From: Oceaniferula marina
Lineage (GTDB): Bacteria > Verrucomicrobiota > Verrucomicrobiia > Verrucomicrobiales > Akkermansiaceae
Assembly: GCF_013391475.1 (NCBI RefSeq)
Contig: NZ_JACBAZ010000001.1
Span: 1,012,377-1,076,376, forward strand
Direction: 5' to 3'
DNA length: 64,000 nucleotides
Both the position numbers and the translations under genes were made by a program. The first letter of the stretch is position 1, and each line of letters opens with the position of its first letter. Shown here in pieces: positions 50,878 through 52,356 of this stretch. The notes under the pieces are model-generated. The model was given only the letters and a program-made list of their open reading frames with translations, had not been told where the DNA came from and searched no databases.

Positions 50878-51438
50878 TTAAAAACGGCGCAACTCTTGCA
50901 ACACACGCTGCACGGGCAGACCAACGACATTGTCGTAGTCGCCCTTGAGCTGCTCAATGATGAGATCGCCATGCTCCTGAACCGCGTAAGCCCCTGCCTT
51001 ATCCAATACATGCACCTTGGATAAATAGTCATCGATTATCGTCAAACTCAATGGTTTGAACACGACCTCGGTGATCTCATGAAAACAATGACTCTCGCCA
51101 CCACGGGCCAAACACACGCCTGTGCAGACTTTACTCGTTCTGCCTGATAACTGTTGCAACATCTTACGCGCATGCGCCTCATCATCCGGCTTTCCCAGCG
51201 GCATCTGGTCGATATAGACCAGGGTATCCGCCCCCAACACCACAGCCTCAGGAAAATCCTTCGCCACCGCAAGCGCCTTGAGCTTCGCATTCCCTTCGCA
51301 AAGAACAGGCAATGGAATCGACGCATCATGCAACTCTTCCGCCGGAGAAACCAGCACATCAAAATCCAAGCCAGCAGCCGACAACAGTTCACGCCGACGC
51401 GGCGAACCCGATGCCAGAATCAAACGATCTAAACCCAT
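50878..51438 (-). CDS. maf: Maf-like nucleotide pyrophosphatase
   Basis: House-cleaning enzyme that hydrolyses dTTP/UTP or modified nucleotides, linked to cell division arrest. 186 aa. The signature LILASGSPRRRELLSAAGL is at the N-terminus, and GADTLVYIDQMPLGKP, KAGAYAVQEHGD and GDYDNVVGLPV complete the site. The ATG at 51438 is preferred (a GTG at 51441 is just before it). Its start codon lies at the very end of a 7-bp repeat array, so the whole leader is repeat DNA and no Shine-Dalgarno is visible. Confidence 0.93.
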   Translation of the reverse strand: MGLDRLILASGSPRRRELLSAAGLDFDVLVSPAEELHDASIPLPVLCEGNAKLKALAVAKDFPEAVVLGADTLVYIDQMPLGKPDDEAHARKMLQQLSGRTSKVCTGVCLARGGESHCFHEITEVVFKPLSLTIIDDYLSKVHVLDKAGAYAVQEHGDLIIEQLKGDYDNVVGLPVQRVLQELRRF

Positions 51439-51440
51439 CA

Positions 51441-51540
51441 CAAATCACTAATTACTAATCACAAATCACAAATCACCAATCACCAATCACAAATCACAAA
51501 TCACCAATCACCAATCACCAATCACCAATCACCAATCACC
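51441..51540. repeat. Heptamer tandem repeat array between lexA and maf (14 units)
   Basis: Fourteen successive 7-bp units of the form C(A/C/T)AAT(C/T)A run without interruption from 51441 to 51538. Most are CCAATCA (8) or CAAATCA (4 or 5), with CTAATCA and CTAATTA variants at the maf end. Read on the - strand the units are TGATTGG, TGATTTG and TGATTAG. The array begins 6 bp after the lexA stop and ends inside the maf start codon region. The more degenerate units lie at the maf end, as expected if the array grows at the other end. Confidence 0.92.
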
Positions 51541-51546
51541 TGCCCC

Positions 51547-52164
51547 CTATGCCGCCGAACGCAGCAAGGCAACCAGAACGCCTTGGATAACTAACTCTCT
51601 CGCCGGGATCAGGTCGGGAAACTGTTCATTCTCTGCGCGAAGAAACGGTTTCCCATCTTCGATCACGTAGCGCTTCAGGGTTGTTTCTCCATCGATCAGA
51701 GCGGCGACTACATCTCCTTTACGCGGCTCGCGAAACTCCATCACCACAGTGTCTCCATCGCAAATATGTGCATCAATCATCGATTCCCCTCGGACTTTCA
51801 GAGCAAAGGTCCGGGCATTGCCATGCAGCCCCAGTGAAGAAACATCAATCGACAGGCAACCGTCTCGTTCGGAGTCCACGTCCTGGGACATCCCTGCCGC
51901 AATACTTCCGTAAATCGGAATATCCACGATTTCCTCTCGCTCCATTTCCTCGGGAAAGCCGATCCCGCAGGCTTTATTGGCCTTACGCACGATGGCTCCT
52001 TTTTTTTCCAAGGCGCGGAGGTGACTCATTGCCGCCGTCTGGCTGGCAAAGTTAAAGTGCCGTTGAATATCACGGGTCGATGGCATAAAGCCCTCAACCC
52101 GGTGGGTTTCCTTGAGGTAATCGAGAACCTCCTGCTGGCGTTTGGTAAGTGTAATCTGAGACAT
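51547..52164 (-). CDS. lexA: LexA SOS repressor
   Basis: Represses DNA-damage genes until RecA-stimulated self-cleavage. 205 aa: winged-helix N-terminal domain (TKRQQEVLDYLKE, PSTRDIQRHFNFAS), cleavage site Ala90-Gly91 within SIAAGMSQ, catalytic Ser128 in KVRGESMIDA and Lys164 in GETTLKRYV. All residues needed for autocleavage are there. The leader between the promoter and ATG is a 7-bp repeat array (52174-52221) and no Shine-Dalgarno is visible. A perfect TGTTC-N4-GAACA box 180 bp upstream suggests autoregulation. Confidence 0.97.
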   Translation of the reverse strand: MSQITLTKRQQEVLDYLKETHRVEGFMPSTRDIQRHFNFASQTAAMSHLRALEKKGAIVRKANKACGIGFPEEMEREEIVDIPIYGSIAAGMSQDVDSERDGCLSIDVSSLGLHGNARTFALKVRGESMIDAHICDGDTVVMEFREPRKGDVVAALIDGETTLKRYVIEDGKPFLRAENEQFPDLIPARELVIQGVLVALLRSAA

Positions 52165-52173
52165 GGGAATGAG

Positions 52174-52221
52174 TGATTAATGATTAATGATTAGTGATTA
52201 GTGATTAGTGATTAGTGATTG
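52174..52221. repeat. Heptamer tandem repeat array in the lexA leader (about 7 units)
   Basis: Two units TGATTAA, four units TGATTAG and a truncated TGATTG run from 52174 to 52221. On the coding strand of lexA this is (CTAATCA)n, and it ends 9 bp before the lexA ATG at 52164. The unit is the reverse complement of the CTAATCA found in the array at 51441, so lexA is flanked by two arrays of one repeat family in opposite orientation. Confidence 0.9.
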
Positions 52222-52342
52222 TGGGGGGATGGATCACCACGATCGGGCAAAGCGTGACAAGCACAGTGGTTTGTTTTTGGAGCCCCCCATCTACCAGCGG
52301 CATAAGACCAGCGGCATAAGGGTCGGGCAAGCAATTGAACAC

Positions 52343-52356
52343 TGTTCTTTGGAACA
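52343..52356. promoter_or_regulatory. LexA box upstream of lexA
   Basis: TGTTC-TTTG-GAACA is a perfect palindrome with the structure TGTTC-N4-GAACA, the motif that I recall being reported for verrucomicrobial LexA. It lies about 180 bp before the lexA ATG. An additional GAAC just upstream (52337-52340) also pairs with the GTTC. No other such box was noticed near other genes in the window. Confidence 0.8.

Follow-up and report, generated by a model that had tools for sequence, protein, structure and literature searches.

The lexA gene of Oceaniferula marina lies between two tandem arrays of one heptamer family in opposite orientation, a layout noted in the initial annotation of a 64,000-nt stretch of this genome (the window) and confirmed here from the sequence, by Tandem Repeats Finder and by shuffles. 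We find that the outstanding property of such arrays is their period of 7 rather than the CTAATCA sequence, the family being one of dozens of heptamers, and that the mirrored lexA arrays fit, as one case, a wider tendency for the G-rich strand to read away from the nearest gene end. We interpret the arrays as heptanucleotide simple sequence repeats that would have grown by slippage and been filtered for orientation by the adjoining genes, the G-free strand suiting a G-poor leader, and we give this reading a probability of roughly 0.7. A single unusual locus thus leads to two general questions, namely why the period is 7 and why it is so often the G-rich strand that reads away from genes.

Arrays and layout of the lexA–maf locus

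On the transcript strand the locus reads LexA box, leader with CTAATCA-type units at its end, lexA ATG, lexA stop, TGATTNG units and maf start (Table 1), in agreement with the earlier statement that the arrays form the lexA leader and the lexA–maf junction; the two arrays of one family are ~0.6 kb apart. The head-to-tail 7-bp units by which heptanucleotide simple sequence repeats are recognized occur here beyond chance, the pattern CHAATCACHAATCA giving 14 matches in the window against a mean of 0.00 in 100 shuffles. The initial annotation had counted 14 and 6–7 units, and we likewise find 14 heptamers in array 1 and, in array 2, six TGATTA[AG] units followed by a terminal TGATTG. Tandem Repeats Finder delimits array 1 as 51433-51540 (period 7, 15.4 copies) and array 2 as 52172-52220 (7.0 copies). 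The gaps of 6 and 9 bp reported earlier also hold: array 2 is 9 bases from the lexA ATG, and array 1 is 6 bases from the lexA stop codon if its end is set at 51540 and 8 if it is set at 51538.

Table 1 Features of the lexA–maf locus, in window coordinates
Feature	Position	Strand or placement	Description
Array 1	51441-51538	+	(C[ACT]AATCA)14; transcript strand (TGATTNG)14, between lexA stop and maf start
Array 2	52174-52221	-	Seven CTAATCA-type heptamers; final ~50 nt of lexA leader
lexA	51547-52164	-	205 aa; TIGR00498 154 bits, cut-off 110.95
maf	50878-51441	-	187 aa from listed GTG; TIGR00172 149.9 bits, cut-off 117.15
LexA box TGTTC-N4-GAACA	52343-52356	-	192 nt 5′ of lexA ATG
14-bp tandem duplication	52293-52320	between LexA box and lexA ATG	Tandem Repeats Finder, 2.0 copies, 100%

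The variable base of array 1 reads, unit by unit, A T T A A C C A A C C C C C, and unit 2 (CTAATTA) carries the sole further deviation from C[ACT]AATCA. Array 1 is also detected at period 28 (3.7 copies at 93%), which corresponds to a repeated internal block of four units. We dropped the idea that one hypervariable unit position reflects templated addition, because the search pattern had let only that position vary and other positions vary beyond the seeds; the concentration of variation at one position still holds for array 1. The GTG listed as the start of maf falls on the boundary of array 1 (51441) and an ATG follows directly at 51438, which may be the true start. The motif TGTTC-N4-GAACA, which we take to be a LexA box, matches the window once, against 0.01 times on average in shuffles. 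It is overlapped by a promoter-like match, one such match being found where shuffles give 1.0 on average, and the lexA–maf junction yielded no terminator-like site.

Distribution in the genome, the genus and the phylum

The arrays are confined to the O. marina lineage and do not represent a device conserved at lexA. We detected lexA in 12 of 14 genus genomes; an array 5′ of the gene is present in none of the 10 relatives with a readable leader (an eleventh has an assembly gap), and an array 3′ of it in none of 11 relatives, in which ~145 nt behind lexA were read. The suggestion that the CTAATCA sequence forms a conserved tuning device finds no support in these 10 leaders and 11 junctions. Any family 21-mer occurs in two of the 14 genus genomes, O. 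marina included, and a family 28-mer in 10 of 387 genomes of the phylum.

The O. marina genome (5.07 Mb, 88 contigs; G000 in coordinates below) has six sites marked by a family 21-mer: both lexA flanks, three that precede or separate other ORFs, and one internal to a DNA ligase gene. The initial annotation had asked whether such arrays favour leaders or are scattered at random, and the six sites lean towards leaders, random scatter being only partly borne out; the link to the SOS response that it drew extends to none of these sites beyond lexA. At the intragenic site (G000:C3:261674; L023, L311) the array runs in frame through a gene that we take from its sequence to be an NAD-dependent DNA ligase, within a 25-residue extra segment that is absent from all 10 aligned genus relatives. 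In a relative, a short family array (L025; G007:C379:2148) is likewise in frame, translated SQITNQ, in a queA-like ORF.

Arrays of other units also occur. Counting at least three units, 1.57 Mb of the O. marina genome holds 9, 9 and 4 arrays of periods 7, 8 and 9, respectively, against 0 in one random sequence, and its other heptamers include AACTTCC, AACTAAT/AACCAAT, AACCGAT, AACCCAG, AAAACTG and the TAACTGA class. Long octamer arrays lie at C1:635246, C1:941584, C2:606442 and C2:954189, for example AACACCTC spanning 151 bases; the genome therefore gathers units of 7 to 9 bp. On contig C1, positions 1-1,000,925 are free of period-7 arrays (repeat match over at least 12 positions) and several lie at 1.00-1.11 Mb.

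Heptamers in other organisms

A 28-mer scan of species genomes returned at least 116 stretches, 80 of them listed with titles, and among these 80 listed matches the family heptamer is found sporadically, in ~14 phyla (Lentisphaeria counted with Verrucomicrobia). The 80 listed loci (596 kb) contain 141 exact runs of period 7 against 0 to 6 for periods 4-6 and 8-12, and 62 of the 141 differ from all three family units. Across the 116 listed loci there are 195 arrays, of which 130 differ from the family by at most one mismatch and the remaining 65 fall into 47 other classes. The same dominance of period 7 is seen in 800 kb of Sphaerospermopsis (270 runs, compared with 0-7 for periods 5, 6 and 8-12), in which 241 arrays form 51 classes and the family unit AATCACC is the commonest (27 arrays); this bears out the kinship with cyanobacterial heptamers supposed earlier, although that genome and the 116 loci were both reached through the family and are thus uninformative about its frequency elsewhere. 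In Sphaerospermopsis tiles L327-L366, many intergenic regions consist mostly of different heptamer arrays, with G-rich ones to the left, C-rich ones to the right and often a short AT-rich middle between them.

Counts of four exact units in viral contigs gave 3 stretches for CTAATCA, 9 and 5 for two permuted heptamers, and 30 for TAACTGA, the permuted-unit control covering viral contigs rather than bacterial genomes. A sequence-specific pan-bacterial family is weakened by these counts, in which permuted units outnumber it, and by the commonness of other heptamers in the flanks. A repeat family that is mobile or spreads horizontally, through an insertion mechanism or binding protein of its own, would accord with a unit found in so many phyla among the matches listed and with an in-frame array in a ligase segment that relatives lack, and MacGregor (PMC4679880) made a case for the horizontal spread of TAACTGA; however, the other heptamers flanking these loci (47 classes), the 51 classes in Sphaerospermopsis and the excess of both permuted units over CTAATCA all speak against it, and we consider this explanation highly improbable.

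Strand orientation relative to genes

Relative to lexA, the G strand of both arrays is non-coding upstream and coding downstream; relative to maf, array 1 is an exception, with its G-rich strand in the maf leader. The wider tendency was counted with gene ends from a simple ORF caller. Among 132 family arrays in the 116 listed loci (32 of them without a usable gene end within 150 bp outside), the C strand reads into the gene in 29 cases and away in 10 at starts, and into the gene in 44 and away in 17 at stops, where array-masked composition predicts 57% and 56%. Five of the 10 exceptions at starts have the start called within the array, and 15 of the 44 arrays on the stop side touch or contain the stop codon, which itself favours that orientation. 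Solitary unmasked units close to gene ends show the same lean in these loci (16:6 and 20:6), which is absent from the O. marina genome (14:12 and 10:23). For the 65 other heptamers of the 116 loci, the G-poor strand reads into the gene by 11:2 at starts and 19:8 at stops.

In Sphaerospermopsis the ratios are 26:2 at starts and 43:8 at stops for arrays 1-30 nt from the gene, with 22:11 and 14:20 at 31-200 nt and 4:3 and 24:2 at a distance of 0 or less; skewed windows without arrays give 58% at starts and 63% at stops, and 37 of the 241 arrays lie inside ORFs, 15 lie far from genes and 10 have equal G and C. Arrays that are single in their intergenic region and within 30 nt still give 19:5 at starts and 29:10 at stops. 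Of 50 pairs of neighbouring arrays sharing an intergenic region, 44 have the G-rich array first and the C-rich second, and 2 the reverse order; in the 116 listed loci the corresponding figures are 18 and 3 of 30. In O. marina 8 of the 13 period 7-9 arrays conform, a number too small to judge against null windows at 69% (starts) and 34% (stops).

This orientation tendency has already been published for quadruplex heptamers, and the present counts extend it to many classes of heptamer that have no GGG tract: arrays lacking both GGG and CCC exceed the skewed-window null both at starts (18:2, p 0.003) and at stops (34:8, p 0.016). Quadruplexes are therefore not its only cause. We also rejected stop codons on the G strand as the sole cause of the tendency at stops: they explain arrays at a distance of 0 or less (15 outward, 1 inward, in the listed loci), but Sphaerospermopsis arrays without a stop on the G strand still give 17:1 at 1-30 nt from stops.

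lexA leaders of the genus

In O. marina, a four-base Shine-Dalgarno core precedes 61 of 722 ATG ORFs of at least 150 aa, and G drops to 15-16% in the final 20 nt of leaders before the ATG. The 11 readable lexA leaders (O. marina and 10 relatives) contain 0 to 7 G in their final 40 nt, and all 11 carry the box TGTTC-N4-[GA]AACA, 45 to 192 nt before the ATG. Five of them contain a tandem repeat (score of at least 14, with 0 of 500 base shuffles as good), at lags of 7, 12, 12, 15 and 9. These are the five longest leaders, a link that is partly trivial because the repeats themselves lengthen leaders. Among other leaders such repeats occur in 4 of 467 in O. marina, two of the four matches being two sides of one array, and in 1 of 55 in relatives (5 of 522 together). 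The excess in lexA leaders (Fisher p 3e-7; 0.0014 without O. marina; 8e-6 with two close relatives counted once) is post hoc, with a threshold chosen after the scores were seen and starts taken from ORF calls, and the 90-nt stretch tested extends past the box in short leaders. In other genera, represented by 23 among 30 listed lexA loci (57 family genomes have lexA), 18 of the 23 carry the box, at a distance of 24 to 34 nt from the ATG, whereas none has a tandem repeat in the lexA leader.

These data bear on a slippage tuning device, in which a change in unit number or repeated lengthening of the leader would set LexA synthesis under selection. The excess of repeats over other leaders and the greater box–ATG distance in the genus than in the listed loci of other genera are consistent with such a device, but the units differ between lexA leaders, six of the 11 have none, the test was post hoc with its threshold set after seeing the scores, and array 2 lies outside the lexA reading frame, downstream of the LexA box and before the ATG. 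We judge it unlikely. What persists of the link to lexA proposed earlier is a weaker form, the recurrence in genus lexA leaders of tandem repeats with differing units. A broader version, which we also hold to be rather unlikely, makes the lexA leader a recurrent selected target: lineages would independently have lengthened the G-poor box–ATG stretch with differing units, repeat number would set the strength and timing of LexA resynthesis without a conserved sequence and, in O. marina, the complementary array behind lexA would add an RNA clasp. Should the excess in lexA leaders hold in a larger sample, it would mean that a stress-response regulator has repeatedly acquired a leader of variable length.

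The called start of a Y-family polymerase-like gene (L405; G000:C2:286265) is preceded by a LexA box at 2 nt; a long leader is therefore not common to all box-bearing genes. Loss of mismatch repair was rejected, mutS being above cut-off in 14 of 14 and mutL in 12 of 14 genus genomes, O. marina in both. A control with recA leaders was discarded, as the start had been set ~50 codons too far in (four loci read) and the lone recA match was coding sequence. The O. marina recA (L400) encodes a RecA N-terminal extension with a 12-bp coding repeat, EKPTEKPTEK.

Possible RNA pairing between the arrays

In a lexA–maf transcript the complementary arrays could pair as an RNA clasp, which would place lexA in a loop and close off both its leader and the start of maf. 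The predicted array–array duplex has an energy of -67.5 kcal/mol, compared with -26.2 on average when array 1 is shuffled, and the predicted 931-nt fold has 46 expected inter-array pairs (z -4.82, 20 shuffles). Among bracketing pairs in the 116 listed loci, the unit is exactly complementary in 3 of 7 (permutation mean 0.86, p 0.02), and at L177:4928-5567 a pyrR-like gene is bracketed as lexA is, by CCAATCA units that end 1 nt ahead of its ATG and TGATTGG units that lie 3 nt past its stop codon. In Sphaerospermopsis, however, none of 10 brackets is exactly complementary (mean 0.39) and four reach 6 of 7 matches (mean 1.87, p 0.09), no pair among 44 within single intergenic regions is exactly complementary (permutation mean 3.7), and the clasp arrangement is absent from the relatives read. 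The general pairing data are thus mixed and mostly against selection for array–array pairing, and a clasp at lexA seems very unlikely. Hairpin selection was rejected on the same 44 pairs, 11 of which match at 6 of 7 (mean 9.0).

Origin of the arrays

To the observed arrays, their lineage restriction, the orientation counts and the leader composition we attach the following mechanism. Both arrays would have grown in the O. marina lineage by slippage or unequal exchange, and the adjoining genes would limit the sites and orientations in which arrays survive, so that a selective filter may be the cause of their orientation. In front of lexA, the transcript would carry the G-free, start-codon-free CTAATCA strand, in keeping with genus leaders that are G-poor and lack a Shine-Dalgarno sequence; behind the lexA stop, it would carry the TGATTNG strand. 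Slippage, which the initial annotation had invoked, is plausible in this genome on the basis of the four-unit duplication in array 1 and of a unit gain in Helicobacter pylori, in which a non-coding TGATTAG array is reported to have lengthened from 24 to 25 units when passed from one spouse to the other (PMC3858298). Any influence on expression would probably be minor and independent of conservation of the CTAATCA sequence. Slippage alone leaves unexplained the gathering of repeats in lexA leaders and the closeness of two arrays of the same family.

Comparison with known repeat systems

We found no description of a CTAATCA-type heptamer at lexA in the open-licence literature; as a kind, the lexA arrays are bacterial repeats already described. 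Rehm et al. 2015 (PMC4692102) describe the heptamers GGGAATC in Xanthomonas and GGGGA(T/C)T in Nostoc, mostly intergenic and near gene ends, with the G strand non-coding upstream and coding downstream in two Xanthomonas strains and Nostoc, along with shorter or mutated forms; inverted pairs occur in Xanthomonas, and a role was not found. The lexA arrays share with them the period of 7, the placement near genes and the orientation of the G strand. In contrast to them, TGATTNG has few copies in O. marina and has no GGG tract, and it is therefore unable to form quadruplexes of that type. A GTGATTA heptamer is also cited in the same source (PMC4692102).

MacGregor 2015 (PMC4679880) reports TAACTGA repeats in Beggiatoaceae, Cyanobacteria and Bacteroidetes, with 169 sets in one genome, which mostly point to start codons, end just before them and replace the Shine-Dalgarno sequence. 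Array 2 resembles these sets as a heptamer ending just 5′ of a start codon, in one orientation and with occurrences in distant phyla. It differs in its unit, and related heptamers are rare as repeats there, according to that text, whereas other heptamers are common here (PMC4679880). The O. marina genome itself has a TAACTGA-class array (AACTGAT) at C2:846958. The H. pylori array is the identical heptamer, but it is described as one long array at genome position 164, without lexA context (PMC3858298). Long simple sequence repeats with units of 5-11 nt, heptamers being the commonest, and with slippage proposed as their origin, were described by Mrazek and co-workers (as cited in PMC4679880 and PMC4692102), and, as far as these citations describe them, they match the lexA arrays both in unit length and in proposed origin.
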